Source: Chitinophagales bacterium
GTDB taxonomy: Bacteria; Bacteroidota; Bacteroidia; Chitinophagales; UBA2359
NCBI GenBank assembly: GCA_020629205.1
Contig: JAHDDV010000003.1
Coordinates: forward strand, 2,274 to 54,767
Direction: 5' to 3'
Length of the DNA: 52,494 nt
Position 1 is the stretch's first letter. Each line of letters starts with the position of its first letter. The notes below the pieces were generated by a model. The model was not told the origin of the DNA. It ran no database searches and saw only the letters and a list, made by a program, of their open reading frames with translations. Positions 4,091 through 52,494 of the stretch are shown piece after piece. Made by a program: the position numbers and the translations under genes.

Positions 4091-5768
4091 ATCCGTTGAG
4101 TCTATTGTGGTAATAGTATAGTAGGTTGAGATCCTGACTGCTAATGTCTCCATCCTTGTTTATGAACAAAGGTTTTTTGGCATGATACACACCGATGTTG
4201 TCGATTCCGTGTCTGATCAGTCGATCAGTATCTCCGTGCATATGATCTGCAAGTTTTATCTTGTTCTGTTCGACCATGCTCTTTAGGACGGCTCTGGTGC
4301 GTTCTACCATGCTGTGAAACTGTTGGTAGGGGATTACACGCTCATCTTCCGGCAATCTGAGTAAGCCATACACATCCAGTCGTCTGTGTTTTTTATTGAG
4401 CATTTCCATTGCGACATATGCCACCAGATGACTGGACATGACTCTATTGTTGATATGCAGCTTTTCAATCACCTTGGTTGCCAGCATTTTTGTGTATTCT
4501 GAGTCTCTTTGCTCATCGGCAATGAGCTTGCCTCCGGAAAGGAAGTAGCTACTCAAGTCGATGTGATTGCCATTGGGGCCCACACTTTCTCCTTTTTCAT
4601 CTACGGGATTCCCGAAGAGGTCCATTGGCTCGCCAAAGGATAGTACAATCTCAGATTTGGCAGAAAAGAACTTCCAAAGGAATTCAGCAAGTTTTTTGGA
4701 ACTCGGGAAAGGATCTTTATCTATGAAGTACTTCTCCTTGCCCTGACGGCTTAGGTGTTGATCGATCAGCCCTGCTGCCTCAAGAACAAAATGGTATCCC
4801 AGGACTAGAGGAACGACAAAGATCTTCTTTGAGCGTCCTGGATCTTGATCTGCTTCGAATCGCATACGTTGTGCGTCAATCATCGTAGATAAGAGACCCA
4901 GTTTTAGTTTCGATTCAATTTCTCCAGATCGGGAGCGAGTGCCACCTGGAAAAAACAGTGTATGGCAGCCCTGATGAATAGTCATACGACTATAGTTCTT
5001 TAGGGTCTGCAAATAAAGTAGGTTTTTCTTTCTACGATCAATGGTATAGGCCCCTAGTCGTCCCATGAAGTAACCCAAGGTCTTGCTGTTGAACAGATTC
5101 AGACCTGCTCCGTAAGTAACGGCGGGTAGGCCGAGGGTGTGAATGCTCCAACCCACCAAAATGGAATCGAGGTTGCTAAAGTGGGTCGGAAGAATGAGCA
5201 CTGTTCCTTCCAGTGAAAGTTCCCTAATCTTCTCTAGTGGGCCGGAGAGCTTAAGTCGATCACCGATTTGAAACTGGTTGCTCCAGATTCTCTTTACGTT
5301 TCTGCCAGAAGCGGTATTGAGCAGTCTGGCAAAACCTATTGGAAGCAGCCTTTTGGCTACATTATAGGTTGAAGGTTGAAAATCTCCAGCAATCTCGTTG
5401 GCATATGAATGGATGATCTCCTGCAAAAGTCGTTCATCTGGTCCTGAGTCCTCTTCAGAGCCCTTTTGCAAGGAGGAGCGAATCATCCGTTTCTTCACCT
5501 TGGCCCAAAAATTCTTTTCTTCCTTCGGGTCGACTGCCCAAGGTTCGGTCCTCATTCTGATTTTCTCCAGATAGTATGCCTTTGCAATCTCTTCTCTCAG
5601 CCCCAGCTCATCTCCTGTCATGCTCAATACTCGGCGGACCGTGTCATCGGTTAGCTGTTCGATAAATTGCTCACGTTGCTTCCCTATCCGAAAGATGGGC
5701 CAGTCTTCCATATTGGGAAGTACCGGCTCGTAAAGACCTTTCTTATTTTTCCGATGGGATATGCTCAT
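4068..5768 (-). CDS. Glycerol-3-phosphate / 1-acylglycerol-3-phosphate acyltransferase family protein (PlsB-like)
   Basis: PTHFSNLDSILVGW (H-x4-D block), LFFPGGTRSRSGEIESKLKLG acyltransferase blocks; adjacent to gpsA. Confidence 0.85.
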   Translation of the reverse strand: MSISHRKNKKGLYEPVLPNMEDWPIFRIGKQREQFIEQLTDDTVRRVLSMTGDELGLREEIAKAYYLEKIRMRTEPWAVDPKEEKNFWAKVKKRMIRSSLQKGSEEDSGPDERLLQEIIHSYANEIAGDFQPSTYNVAKRLLPIGFARLLNTASGRNVKRIWSNQFQIGDRLKLSGPLEKIRELSLEGTVLILPTHFSNLDSILVGWSIHTLGLPAVTYGAGLNLFNSKTLGYFMGRLGAYTIDRRKKNLLYLQTLKNYSRMTIHQGCHTLFFPGGTRSRSGEIESKLKLGLLSTMIDAQRMRFEADQDPGRSKKIFVVPLVLGYHFVLEAAGLIDQHLSRQGKEKYFIDKDPFPSSKKLAEFLWKFFSAKSEIVLSFGEPMDLFGNPVDEKGESVGPNGNHIDLSSYFLSGGKLIADEQRDSEYTKMLATKVIEKLHINNRVMSSHLVAYVAMEMLNKKHRRLDVYGLLRLPEDERVIPYQQFHSMVERTRAVLKSMVEQNKIKLADHMHGDTDRLIRHGIDNIGVYHAKKPLFINKDGDISSQDLNLLYYYHNRLNGYGIIELL

Positions 5769-20773: not shown

Positions 20774-20800
20774 ACATCGCCAGGAGTCAGGATCGGTGAA

Positions 20801-20960
20801 AACTAGCCCCGATCGCAGCGGTATGGATGGCTCAGCGCCCGTCAGCGAAAGCCGGCCAGTGGTGGCTCGACGTAAGGAGAGACGCCAATGGCCGAGCTGA
20901 AGCAGGGCGCTGGGCCATCCATTTTAGCGTAGAGCGGGACGGAAGATGAAAGGAGCAAAA
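20801..20960 (+). repeat. Structured intergenic element, copy A
   Basis: AACTAGCCCCGATCGCAGCGG-[stem]-TAGCGTAGAGCGGGACGG...GGAGCAAAA. Stem arm ATGGATGGCTCAGCGCCC (20823-20840) pairs with GGGCGCTGGGCCATCCAT (20905-20922), 17 Watson-Crick pairs plus one mispair. Shares base and apical-loop motifs with copies B and C. Confidence 0.8.
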
Positions 20961-21017
20961 CTGCTGGGCTACAAAAAATTACAACATAACGAATTGCCCA
21001 TATCTAATTTAATTATT

Positions 21018-21210
21018 TCTTTTTTTGGAGCAAACCAGTATTCGGTCGTGGCTTCTTTCGTCCTGCTCTACGCTCCAATGAAGGCACCTCGGTACAGCTG
21101 CCTGTATCCACTAGCCGGGTCTCTCCGCCTGCGCTCCGAGCCCCGGCTAGTGGCACAGGCAGTCTGCACCGAAGCACCTTCATTTCCTCTTCGATCAGGG
21201 CTATTGATGA
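21018..21210 (-). repeat. Structured intergenic element, copy B
   Basis: Minus strand ATAGCCCTGATCGAAGAGG-[stem]-GGAGCGTAGAGCAGGACG...TTGCTCCAAAAAAA. Roughly 42-nt imperfect inverted arms at 21077-21118 and 21143-21184. Confidence 0.85.
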
Positions 21211-21251
21211 CTGACCGGACTCGTGGCGATAAGGGCAACTGGCCTTAACTA

Positions 21252-21284
21252 CTAGTGGTGCGAACTTTGTTTGCGTAGCACTAG
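21252..21284. repeat. 33-bp palindromic repeat, copy 2 (inverted relative to copy 1)
   Basis: CTAGTGGTGCG-AACTTTGTTTG-CGTAGCACTAG; the loop is the reverse complement of copy 1's loop. Overlaps the stop codon of the 21281-22558 gene. Confidence 0.85.
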
Positions 21285-22558
21285 TAAACTCCAATAAAAG
21301 CGACTTCGTAGGTAAAACGTGACTCCATCAGGAGCGTTTCCCCATCCTCTTGCACTATTTCCGCCTTGGCCAAACCAAGAATTTGATACACTGCCACTCC
21401 ATCATTTCCCAGCTGAGCAGGGAACTGCACATTGATATGGCTAAATGTTTGTTCCGAATCCTGATTAAAATCAAATGGAAGTCGAGCATTGAAGCCGTTT
21501 CCAGTGATCAGGAAATCAATGGAGGAGATTCGGGCATTTTCAAAAGTTCCTGACTTTTCCAATCCGTGCTGAAAAGACATCATGTAAGTTGCTTCCTTGT
21601 TTTCACTGCCGGCAAAACCCTTTGATGGAGGCTTACGTGGGTGGGCTCTCGGAAAGAAGGAAAATACAGCAGTCTGCTTTCCCTTATGATTGGTCTGGAG
21701 CAGCCATCGATGTGTGCCTTTCATACCATTTTCAAACTCCATTGCCACTGCTACTTCTCTGAGCCCCGGCTTCTGTTTTGCTTGCTTGAAGCTGGTCTTG
21801 AATTTCTGATTCCTTACTGGTTTTTCGCCAGATTCCTCCTCCTCTGCACAAGCAAAAGAGATCCCATTTTCAAAGAACTCGACTAGTTCCGGGCGCTTGA
21901 CGGGATTGCTCAAAAGTGGCTGAGTGGGCATTTCTTTCTTAATGGTAAACATGGCAGTACGAATACCACGGGCTCGAAGCATTGGCTGACCCACTAGATT
22001 TTGGCCGAAAGTCAGGTGAACCATTGAGCTGTATTTATAGATAAATCGAACCAGTACTATTGGTCTGCCTGAGACCTCATTGCCCATGGTATCTACAACT
22101 GACAATGATAGTCGCAGCCGATGCGCTGGAGTAAGCATTCCGTCCCTTCCAGGGCGATATCGTCGCTTCAGATTTGACGACCATCTTACCTTGAGGAATC
22201 CGAGTTTGGCACCTTCCTGCAAGCAATAAGCAAAGTCTTCCTTCTCTCCTTTCCACTTGCGAAAGACATGCTTCATCGGGAAGCCACCTTGCTTTCGTTT
22301 GAGATTCCAGTTTCCTAAGTGATCGATCACTGGATCTTCTTTACCGGGATCTGCACCTGGCCTAAATGTGACATGGTACAGCAATTCCTCGCTGACATCA
22401 TCAAGAATGCGAAGAACAATGCGGTCATCAGATCCGGGTAAATCCCCCTTTGCATTTCGCAAGTGCTCAATTAGCATGACGTATATCCCCCCTTGTCTTG
22501 CCCTTTGAATCTTTGAAGTCTCGAGTTGGGAGAAGGAGACTAATGACTTATCTATCAT
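21281..22558 (-). CDS. Hypothetical protein, no recognised family
   Basis: 425-aa uninterrupted ORF with plausible composition; the TAG stop lies in the palindromic repeat. Confidence 0.7.
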   Translation of the reverse strand: MIDKSLVSFSQLETSKIQRARQGGIYVMLIEHLRNAKGDLPGSDDRIVLRILDDVSEELLYHVTFRPGADPGKEDPVIDHLGNWNLKRKQGGFPMKHVFRKWKGEKEDFAYCLQEGAKLGFLKVRWSSNLKRRYRPGRDGMLTPAHRLRLSLSVVDTMGNEVSGRPIVLVRFIYKYSSMVHLTFGQNLVGQPMLRARGIRTAMFTIKKEMPTQPLLSNPVKRPELVEFFENGISFACAEEEESGEKPVRNQKFKTSFKQAKQKPGLREVAVAMEFENGMKGTHRWLLQTNHKGKQTAVFSFFPRAHPRKPPSKGFAGSENKEATYMMSFQHGLEKSGTFENARISSIDFLITGNGFNARLPFDFNQDSEQTFSHINVQFPAQLGNDGVAVYQILGLAKAEIVQEDGETLLMESRFTYEVAFIGVY

Positions 22559-31446: not shown

Positions 31447-32670
31447 ATGTCAAAGAAGCTATTCGGCATTATCAGAGAAGAGAAGAATCCACCAGATTCA
31501 CGAGTAGCTTTACCTCCAGAACATTGTCAGTTGCTCCTAGAACGTTTTGGGGACCAGATAGACCTTGTGGTGCAAAAGTCTCCTAACAGATGTATCAAGG
31601 ACGAAGAGTATATAGCTGCTGGCATCAGAATGGTTGATAGTATTGACCACTGTGATGTCTTAATTGGAGTCAAGGAAGTTCCAATTGACTCTTTGGTTGA
31701 TGGAAAGACCTATCTCTTCTTTTCTCATACACACAAGAAACAGCCTTACAATCGAAAGCTACTTAGAGCAATGATCGAAAAACGGGTGCGCATGATCGAC
31801 TATGAGTTGCTTACCTACGACAACCTAAAGAGAGCCATTGGCTTTGGCTTTTTTGCAGGTGTAGTTGGCGCTCATAACGGGATGCAAGCCTACGGTCGGA
31901 AAACCGGAGCTTTTACATTGCCGGCGGCGCATACATGTCATGATTATGCTGCGATGGTAGAAGGCTACAAGAATGTGAGCTTGCCGGCTATGAAGATTGC
32001 TGTAACGGGTAATGGCAAAGTGGCCAAGGGTGCCCTACAGATCATGAGGGCATTCGGAATCAGGGAAGTAAAAGCCTATGACTATTGTCAAAACGAATAT
32101 CAGGAGCCTGTGTTTGTACACCTACCTAATGATCAGCTATACGAGCGAAGAGACGGAGGAGGTTATGATCAAGAGGAATTTTACGCCGATCCAGCTTTAT
32201 ATTCTTGTCCCTTCAGCAACTTGACTCGTTCCACAGACTTACTGATCAATGGAATATTTTGGCAACATCCTGCACCCGCATATTTCACTTTAGAAGATAT
32301 GCAAAAGTCGGATTTTCGAATCAAGGTCATCGCTGACGTGACATGTGACATTGCACCAGAAGCTTCGATACCTTCCACTCTACGAGCAACGGTGATCGGT
32401 GACCCGGTCTTTGGATTTGATCCACAATCAGGTCTTGAAGTTGAGCCCTACCTTTCGGGCACAGTAGACATGATGACAATTGATAATTTACCTAATGAGC
32501 TACCAAGAGATGCGTCTTACTCTTTTGGGGAGGTATTGATCAAAGATGTTTTCCCCGAGCTAATCAAGCCGGAACGCTCTTCTATGATTGCAAGAGCCAA
32601 TATCTGTAGAGATGGCGCTCTCTGTGCAGACTTTGAATACCTTTCTGATTTTGTTGCGCAAGAAGCCTAG
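31447..32670 (+). CDS. NAD(P)-dependent alanine dehydrogenase / saccharopine dehydrogenase-like oxidoreductase
   Basis: FGIIREEKNPPDSRVALPPEHCQLLLE, LIGVKEVPIDSLVDGKTYLFFSHTHKKQPYNRKLL, IAVTGNGKVAKGALQIM. Confidence 0.82.
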   Translation: MSKKLFGIIREEKNPPDSRVALPPEHCQLLLERFGDQIDLVVQKSPNRCIKDEEYIAAGIRMVDSIDHCDVLIGVKEVPIDSLVDGKTYLFFSHTHKKQPYNRKLLRAMIEKRVRMIDYELLTYDNLKRAIGFGFFAGVVGAHNGMQAYGRKTGAFTLPAAHTCHDYAAMVEGYKNVSLPAMKIAVTGNGKVAKGALQIMRAFGIREVKAYDYCQNEYQEPVFVHLPNDQLYERRDGGGYDQEEFYADPALYSCPFSNLTRSTDLLINGIFWQHPAPAYFTLEDMQKSDFRIKVIADVTCDIAPEASIPSTLRATVIGDPVFGFDPQSGLEVEPYLSGTVDMMTIDNLPNELPRDASYSFGEVLIKDVFPELIKPERSSMIARANICRDGALCADFEYLSDFVAQEA

Positions 32671-32717
32671 TGCCACAGGAACAAAGTAATGGATAACATT
32701 CTACAGACATGCAGGAC

Positions 32718-33731
32718 CTACTTACTTGAGTTAATGCTCTCACGGATACTAGTCATATAGTCAATGGTGTGCTTTAGACCATGCTCAAAAGACACGGTCG
32801 GGCTAAAATTCAGTAGATTATTTGCTTTGCAGGTATCTGCCAGCGAGTGCACTATATCTCCTTTTCTGGGTGCCTCGTAGATGGGCTTTACATCCGTGTT
32901 CATATACTCGGTCATATATGCTACCATCTTATTGACAGAGTAGTTTTGACCGCAAGCAATATTGAACATTTGTCCGAAAGCTTTTTCATTGCGAGTAGTC
33001 AATGCTTTCATATTGGCTTGCACTACATTCTCAATAAAGGTGAAGTCACGGGTTTGTTCACCATCTCCGTAAATAGTAATCTGCTCCTGGTTCTGAAGTT
33101 TGCTGATAAACTTTGGGATCACAGCTGCATAGGCTCCATCTGGATTCTGCCTTGGACCAAATACATTGAAGTACCGAAGTCCAATCACTCTCATTTCATA
33201 CACCCTATCGTATGCCAGTGCAAAACTCTCATTGGCTTGTTTTGAGGCTGCATAGGGCGAAATTGGTGCACCAGCTTCAGTTTCCCCCTTTGGCATCGCT
33301 TTGTTTTCTCCATAAATGGAAGAAGAAGAAGCAAATACCACTCGCTGAACACCTGAAATTCTAGCCCCCTCCAGTACATTGACAAAACCCATGGCATTCA
33401 CCATTGCAGTTCTGATTGGATTGCTCACAGAGCGTGGAACAGAGCCTAAAGCGGCCTGATGAGCAACCAGATGCATGCCCTCGGCAGCCTGTACGCAAGT
33501 CTCGAGATCTGTAATATCGCCTTTGACAAATTCAAAATTCGAGTACTTTTCAAAAGCCACGATATTGTCATAGCTTCCAGTGCTTAGGTCATCCAAGACC
33601 CGTACTTGCTTTGCCTTATGTTTGAGCAAGTACTCAACCAGATTGGAGCCGATGAAGCCGGCACCGCCAGTAACAAGAAAACACAGATCCTCAATGGGTT
33701 TGAGGTGAAAGGGGGTTTCATACATAAACAA
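32718..33731 (-). CDS. NAD-dependent nucleotide-sugar epimerase (UDP-N-acetylglucosamine 4-epimerase / WbpP-like)
   Basis: CFLVTGGAGFIGSNLVEYLLKH, SSSSIYGENKAMPKGE, SPYAASKQANE, GDGEQTRDFTFIENVVQANMKAL. Confidence 0.9.
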   Translation of the reverse strand: MFMYETPFHLKPIEDLCFLVTGGAGFIGSNLVEYLLKHKAKQVRVLDDLSTGSYDNIVAFEKYSNFEFVKGDITDLETCVQAAEGMHLVAHQAALGSVPRSVSNPIRTAMVNAMGFVNVLEGARISGVQRVVFASSSSIYGENKAMPKGETEAGAPISPYAASKQANESFALAYDRVYEMRVIGLRYFNVFGPRQNPDGAYAAVIPKFISKLQNQEQITIYGDGEQTRDFTFIENVVQANMKALTTRNEKAFGQMFNIACGQNYSVNKMVAYMTEYMNTDVKPIYEAPRKGDIVHSLADTCKANNLLNFSPTVSFEHGLKHTIDYMTSIRESINSSK

Positions 33732-48162: not shown

Positions 48163-48328
48163 TAGTGCTGCGTAAACAAAGTATTTGACTCCTCTAAGGA
48201 TCGCTGATCTTTTAGTGAGCCGAGCAGCGAGGATGGGGCAAAGTCATAACTACCTAGCTGACAAGCCAAGAAGGATGACAAAAATACAAGCCCTCAAAGG
48301 TCTCACGCACTTTGTTTGCCTAGCACTA
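48163..48328. mobile_element. MITE-like ~166-bp element with terminal inverted repeats
   Basis: Left end TAGTGCTGCGTAAACAAAGT; reverse complement of right end TAGTGCTAGGCAAACAAAGT (17/20 identical). Same core as the 33-bp palindromes; no ORF of note. Confidence 0.65.
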
Positions 48329-49024
48329 GACTTTGCTAGATCGCCAGGAAGACCAACTCCCCTTCAATGTATTGGCATTGAGGGATCGACCTAGCTCCTC
48401 CAGGAAATGCTCACGACTTATGTCAATCGCTCCAAATCGCTCCAAATGATGTGTGTGCAATTGACAATCAATCATAGTACATCCACGCTCAATCAAATCA
48501 GCAACCAAAGTGATGAAACCTGCCTTAGAGGCATTGCTGGCTTTTGTAAACATCGATTCCCCAAAAAAACAGCTTCCAAGACTAACACCATACAGGCCAC
48601 CTACAAGCTCATCGGCTTCCCATACCTCCACGGAATGAGCAAAGCCAAGTCGATGCAATTTATAGTAAGCCCCCTCTACTTCATCTGTGATCCAGGTACC
48701 ACCTTGCCCCTCTCTGTAGACCTCCTTACATCCCTTGATAACTGACTGAAAATCTTCATCATATGTCACCCTAAACTTCTTTCTGTTTAGGATATTCCGC
48801 ATACTTCGACTAACCTTTAGGTCTTCGGGATAGAGGACGAACCGGGGATTTGGCGACCACCATAGAATAGGGTCATACTCATTAAACCAAGGAAAGATGC
48901 CCTTGCTATATGCAAGCAGCAAACGGCTCGGCGAAAGGTCACCTCCTATTGCTAAGAGTCCGTCTTCGTTGGCTTGTTCTGGAGGTGGAAAATGTAGCTT
49001 TTTGTTCAAAAAGACAACTGACAA
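48326..49024 (-). CDS. aat: Leucyl/phenylalanyl-tRNA--protein transferase
   Basis: FPPPEQANEDGLLAIGGDLSPSRLLLAYSKGIFPWFNEYDPILWWSPNPRFVLYPEDLKVSRSMR, GLYGVSLGSCFFGESMFTKASNASKAGF, CQLHTHHLERFGA. Confidence 0.97.
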   Translation of the reverse strand: MSVVFLNKKLHFPPPEQANEDGLLAIGGDLSPSRLLLAYSKGIFPWFNEYDPILWWSPNPRFVLYPEDLKVSRSMRNILNRKKFRVTYDEDFQSVIKGCKEVYREGQGGTWITDEVEGAYYKLHRLGFAHSVEVWEADELVGGLYGVSLGSCFFGESMFTKASNASKAGFITLVADLIERGCTMIDCQLHTHHLERFGAIDISREHFLEELGRSLNANTLKGSWSSWRSSKV

Positions 49025-52273: not shown

Positions 52274-52457
52274 TTTTTTTGGAGCAAGACAGAATTCGAG
52301 CGTGGCACCCACTGCCTGCTATCCGTTACAATGCTGGCACTCTCCAGCGACTTCGCTGCTGCACTGGTTCCGTCTCTCCGCTGCGCTGCGAGCCAGCCCC
52401 AGCACAGCGACTCAGGCGCTGTATAGCACCATCATTTTCACTTCTATCAGGGCTATG
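52274..52457 (-). repeat. Structured intergenic element, copy C
   Basis: Minus strand ATAGCCCTGATAGAAG-[imperfect stem]-TAACGGATAGCAGG...CTTGCTCCAAAAAAATGA; apical GGCTCGCAGCGCAGCGGAGAGACG shared with copies A and B. Confidence 0.7.
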
Positions 52458-52494
52458 CTTCACCGCCTTTCGCTCGTCGCAACGATGCGCTTAC

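Follow-up and report, generated by a model that had tools for sequence, protein, structure and literature searches.

Three long hairpins, here called A, B and C, lie in a 52,494-nt stretch of a Chitinophagales bacterium contig (JAHDDV010000003.1; the window), raising the question of whether they belong to a single family and, if so, of what kind of element this family is made. The first-pass annotation had described one structured family and named many genomic copies as a test. Re-reading the sequence placed the three hairpins where it had put them and returned the same base motifs, that of copy A (TAGCCCCGATCGCAG) starting at 20804 on the + strand and those of B and C lying on the - strand. 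This test came out in its favour, with 134 exact matches to the base motif TAGCCCNGATNGNAG in the 5.8-Mb window genome, while the reversed control gave 0, so that the likeness between A, B and C is not due to chance.

A family profile built from 81 extracted full copies showed conservation running from ~27 nt before TAGCCC, with the consensus CCACGAGC.AAGGACGGTGAAAA, to ~38 nt beyond the base helix (..TTGCCACGAGCGAATCTGCTGTGCTCCAAAAA), with little outside, and similarity between close copy pairs was confined to positions of roughly -24 to +39 relative to the hairpin. Because these two measures cover the same interval and the flanks are unrelated, the unit is ~205 nt long; its 3' end reads GCTCC followed by an A-run. 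The grouping of the three hairpins into one family therefore stands, but not their extent, since the unit also takes in conserved sequence outside the hairpin, ~25 nt on the 5' side and ~38 nt on the 3' side. Two further details had to be corrected: GGCT..AGACC, annotated as a constant apical loop, instead closes a small apical helix with inner pairs CTC/GAG or CTG/CAG and several loop types, and GGAGCAAAA, annotated as the tail of A, aligns where other copies have CACGAGCGAA and is thus not its tail, the true 3' end of A being GGCTACAAAAAA (20967-20978) by alignment. The features of the three copies are as follows.

20778..20978, + strand: copy A, entire unit (5' flank, hairpin, 3' flank, GGCTAC and A-run), boundaries set by the family profile and close copy pairs
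20801-20945, + strand: copy A, match to the Flavo-1 model RF01705, by covariance-model alignment
20804..20818, + strand: copy A, base 5' strand TAGCCCCGATCGCAG, by motif and covarying columns
20820..20840, + strand: copy A, 5' arm of the variable stem, by fold
20863..20883, + strand: copy A, apical helix and loop GGCTCG..GGAGAGACG, by motif and fold
20904..20922, + strand: copy A, 3' arm of the variable stem, by fold
20924..20942, + strand: copy A, base 3' strand TTAGCGTAGAGCGGGACGG, by motif and covarying columns
21020..21230, - strand: copy B, entire unit, tail-to-tail with A, by RF01705 match (21206-21055), alignment and fold
52274..52482, - strand: copy C, entire unit, by motif, alignment and fold

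Some copies depart from this plan. In L084 (G000:C365, ~4779-4879), one element carries a nested partial tandem duplication, 86 bp apart, and some copies of genome G004 (e.g. L093, L094 and L102) have extra partial 5' ends upstream, set off by a spacer rich in A and T, as well as additional 3' ends on the downstream side, as though element ends had been duplicated.

As ~207-nt units, copies A and B fold far better than shuffled sequences (z = -6.7 and -9.4, 0/200 shuffles as good), and the stem of C, annotated as imperfect, is indeed weak on its own (z = -1.8, 12/200 shuffles as good). The consensus fold of 36 copies of similar length (MAFFT and RNAalifold) has 45 base pairs, 32 of them with two-sided changes. 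Paired cells reached 95.4% in this alignment versus 76.0 when shuffled, two-sided cells 320 versus 88.2 and the covariation score 0.535 versus 0.171, with 0/500 shuffles reaching any of the three, a control that the relatedness of the copies inflates; with partners slid, the score was at most 0.118, a comparison in which the real structure has an advantage, having been derived from the same 36 copies. Helix 1 is paired in 100%, its two variable pairs showing 18 and 21 two-sided changes. The base pair GAT[N]G / GGA[N']AGC occurs as AT 24, GC 22, CG 21 and TA 1, and the base following TAGCCC pairs as TA 32, CG 26, GC 8, AT 1 and TG 1, so that two base columns use all four Watson-Crick combinations. 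Despite the caveats on the controls, we find the covariation convincing from its effect size and from these four-way changes at single pairs. The element fold is under selection, and the annotated picture of a variable stem whose pairing is kept by compensatory change agrees with this strong, helix-specific signal. What is preserved is the fold of one strand: a helix at the base, which has internal motifs of the G.A type, a second helix at the apex, conserved flanks on both the 5' and the 3' side, and a long stem that is free in sequence provided that its pairing holds.

A cruciform, or homogenised arms in duplex DNA, would yield G.T and A.C mismatches equally; a strand that folds alone, as RNA or single-stranded DNA (ssDNA), yields G.T. 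We counted isolated arm mismatches between two Watson-Crick pairs, with a scoring blind to mismatch type. The window genome gave 60 G.T versus 2 A.C, spread over ~30 sequence contexts, and a second set, drawn mostly from JAHDEE01, which is probably G001 of the same genus, gave 42 versus 1 in ~20 contexts. Since G.T far exceeds A.C in both same-genus sets, it is one strand that folds, either as RNA or as ssDNA, which is what had been proposed from the sequence. The few data from G004 showed no such bias (6 G.T and 6 A.C), so that the claim is limited to the window's genus, within which only a single strand counts for the fold.

The base had been likened to the Flavo-1 RNA motif, first described in 2010 (Weinberg 2010, PMC2864571). 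The RF01705 model aligns end to end (1-76 of 76) with copy A (34.1 bits, E 1.9e-5) and copy B (32.4 bits, E 5.2e-5), both below its gathering score of 42 bits. Copies from relatives exceed this score, several of them same-family copies; L132 in a same-genus relative reaches 43.4, L091 55.5 and L089 49.6. Two Flavobacterium copies (L153 and L154) do so as well, and their ends, GCTTC or GCTCC followed by an A-run, are close to the 3' end of the window family. Base motifs and pairing are the same in both, the long stem appearing as an insertion in the model alignments of A and B. The window family differs from the 76-nt model by a hairpin of ~140 nt with much longer stem arms, by an extra apical helix and by conserved flanks beyond the model, and its very long stem is indeed a distinct form, as had been suggested. 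Beyond the Rfam model, copies in G004 also have a perfectly covarying pair, TAG[C/A]CC with C[G/T]CTCC (CG 53, AT 22). From full-length model alignment and shared ends, we read A, B and C as a long-stem lineage of Flavo-1, the window copies scoring under the threshold.

Copy numbers are patchy: 155 in a same-genus genome, 1301 and 84 (G017) in two same-family genomes, 355 in a genome of another family of the order and close to none in most relatives. Among 198 surveyed genomes from the phylum, counts above a handful were confined to the window genome and two genera. Three G004 contigs of ~15 kb each (L099, L103 and L193) lack the element, which elsewhere in that genome occurs once per ~4-5 kb; they may be islands, contaminants or protected regions. 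Copies are intergenic and show no orientation preference relative to neighbouring genes (+E+ 11, -E- 16, +E- 13, -E+ 10), as judged from genes called by a simple coding-score script instead of a standard gene finder. Replication strand gave no consistent bias either, local GC skew on the element strand being positive for 66/102 copies in the window genome (weak, with loose matches counted) and for 39/76 in G004.

Insertion sites differ between related species. Two sites in all differed in occupancy between two species; one of them lies in the window:

32607..32820, no strand: intergenic site empty in the window genome and occupied at the matching L144 site of a same-genus relative, by site comparison

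At the other, L033 is occupied and L137, from another species, is empty within the sequence compared. Flanking genes at the compared sites are 70-76% identical, and the junctions of the empty sites could be fixed only approximately because the intergenic DNA is too diverged. Target-site duplications were not found, the longest word common to both flanks being 4.66 versus 4.72 for shuffled pairings, although old copies could have lost a duplication. Insertion solely at terminator T-tracts was considered and rejected, with few clear cases and no general pattern. In L033 (2840-2935), L085, L094, L097, L098 and L107, the A-run is continuous with the T-tract belonging to a terminator-like hairpin, a possible insertion target. 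The window also holds a second dispersed repeat of ~165 bp (48163-48329, remnant at 21250-21290) with terminal inverted repeats (..TTTGTTTGCGTAGCACTAG); it resembles an ordinary MITE. Its window copy has 43 matches in the window genome, other copies being 72-84% identical, and there are 56 exact copies of its end motif (control 0); in L052 and L036 the repeat and a Flavo-1 copy are 16-49 bp apart.

While exploring G004, we noticed that the copies are spaced by a directional rule, which was then sought in genomes outside its definition; all are draft assemblies. Neighbouring copies in G004 are opposite in 85/98 cases (P = 4e-14), and one of the 13 same-orientation neighbours is a double detection (gap -121). 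When all pairs are compared with copies placed at random along the same contigs, those of the same orientation are absent within 2 kb (0 versus 33.9 expected), tail-to-tail pairs within 2 kb are rare (3 versus 17.2) and head-to-head pairs within 500 bp are enriched (20 versus 5.7). These counts reduce to a single rule, namely that ~2 kb on the 3' side of each copy is free of other copies. The nearest same-strand spacing in G004 is regular, with a median of 5.0 kb and a CV of 0.40.

The same polarity was found elsewhere. Among the listed positions of G020, 10 pairs within 3 kb are opposite and 0 are same-orientation (P = 0.0009, shuffled strands), with 0 tail-to-tail pairs within 2 kb. In the window genome and JAHDEE01, 16/16 pairs within 3 kb are opposite once the L084 partial tandem, the sole close same-orientation pair of the window genome, is set aside, and tail-to-tail gaps span 2155-2987 bp, A/B (54 bp) being the exception and longer gaps lying out of view at most window-genome loci, which carried 3-kb flanks. 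With G017 (2 opposite, 0 same), the four genomes other than G004 sum to 28 opposite and 0 same within 3 kb. Copies thus avoid the ~2 kb that lie 3' of each other, and head-to-head neighbours are tolerated or favoured. Gene orientation was rejected as the cause of the alternation, as copies alternate even inside uniformly oriented gene arrays (e.g. L097), and we are aware of no assembly artefact sensitive to orientation over 2 kb. The spacing could arise by deletion between direct copies, by target immunity on one side or by selection for spacing, the first being insufficient alone because close tail-to-tail pairs are also rare. The pattern suggests that a directional process runs from the 3' end. 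Flavo-1 might, tentatively, be the substrate of a directional enzyme system acting over ~2 kb from this end, its one-sided exclusion arising through polarity-dependent transposition immunity or strand-specific deletion. To our knowledge, one-sided exclusion of this kind has been described for no repeat family.

We searched for proteins that could mobilise the element. The Y1_Tnp domain (PF01797) is present in G001, G004 and G020 and was not found in the window genome (90.8% complete) nor in G017 with its 84 copies; being missing from the former and not following copy number, RAYT was rejected as the mobiliser. The RAYT locus examined in G020 (L174) has no Flavo-1 copy within 1.5 kb, and one in G004 (L171) has a copy within ~0.7 kb, where density is ~1 per 4.8 kb. 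Reverse transcriptase was rejected on similar grounds, as RVT_1 (PF00078) does not track copy number and was not found in the same-genus genome with 155 copies (96% complete). Neither domain is common to all high-copy genomes, absences that fall short of proof because the assemblies are 83-97% complete. An autonomous element or cassette between copies was also rejected: ten G004 proteins encoded between head-to-head copies belong to ordinary Pfam families, including GMP synthase, chaperonin, rhomboid and MauG, with one lacking a Pfam match.

Altogether, A, B and C are probably copies of a non-autonomous, dispersing ~205-nt element of the long-stem Flavo-1 lineage that is handled in trans via its folded strand. 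The copies are dispersed, have sharp ends and are indifferent to gene orientation, and this explanation also draws on the 134 versus 0 matches, the patchy copy numbers, the covariation, the one-strand G.T excess and the occupied and empty sites; that no transposition event was seen, the empty sites placed only approximately, the missing target-site duplications, the lack of a mobiliser match and the 6:6 count of G004 weigh against it. The element would work like a parasite of the REP/MITE class, by likeness of behaviour: the folded strand may serve as a handle by which an enzyme acting in trans copies or inserts the element as ssDNA, as for REP elements. We read the element as neither a cis-acting RNA nor a terminator. 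That each copy is instead a functional structured RNA under selection (a cis-regulator, UTR element or small RNA) seems unlikely: strong covariation, one-strand tolerance of G.U pairs and the Rfam classification of Flavo-1 as an sRNA speak for it, whereas neighbouring genes show no orientation preference, copy numbers are patchy and conservation ends ~27 nt upstream, with nothing further that could serve as a promoter. In the F. psychrophilum transcriptome, some Flavo-1 matches coincide with 5' transcribed regions, which fits such an RNA, but matches lie sense or antisense indistinctly and many fall outside transcribed regions, which argues for dispersal (PMC9723704).

We also doubt that folded RNA is reverse-transcribed into DNA from the 3' A-run as priming end, in the manner of a SINE; the one-strand fold with G.U pairs, the fixed 3' end with its A-run and the dispersed copies would suit such a retroelement, but target-site duplications were not found, RVT_1 was missing from the 155-copy same-genus genome and 3' halves are not in excess (81 exact 3' versus 134 exact 5' patterns, which differ in stringency). 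Rather improbable is a chromosomal site that spread in the past, became domesticated as the binding place of a nucleoid, recombination or replication protein and is now kept for its spacing and polarity. The regular and directional same-strand spacing in G004 and the similar polarity in other genera favour such a site, yet one-sided immunity or deletion predicts the spacing equally, most related genomes lack the element and its presence differs between species within one genus. Intrinsic terminators are very improbable on anatomy, an A-run taking the place of a U-run after the hairpin in its own orientation; copies also lie between divergent genes, even if strong hairpins occur at gene ends and a few (L033, L085) abut a real terminator.

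Like REP, REPIN and BIME sequences with their RAYT (TnpA-REP), the non-autonomous element proposed here forms high-copy intergenic hairpins that are patchy across species and presumed to act as an ssDNA handle, and BIMEs are reported to alternate in orientation (PMC2817692). The window family differs by its length (~205 versus 20-40 nt), by an alternation that spans kilobases, by the lack of a Y1_Tnp match in the window genome and by the lack of a Flavo-1 copy within 1.5 kb of the RAYT locus examined in G020. With MITEs it shares short, non-coding, dispersed and sharp-ended copies and copy-number bursts; unlike them, its hairpin is strand-specific, no terminal inverted repeats were noticed at the unit ends and no target-site duplications were found. 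Integron attC sites, with a folded single strand, a conserved base and a variable stem, may also be alike; the window-family base does not read as RYYYAAC/GTTRRRY, and a gene-cassette arrangement was not seen.

Ever since 2010, Flavo-1 has stood as an orphan family of "sRNA". The data suggest that its true unit is ~200 nt long, that one folded strand is selected and that its spread resembles that of a mobile element; its annotation as sRNA genes is therefore probably misleading. The first-pass annotation had foreseen neither the larger unit, nor the independence from gene orientation, nor the directional spacing rule, and this rule, observed across several genera, gives concrete access to the mechanism and can be tested in complete genomes.
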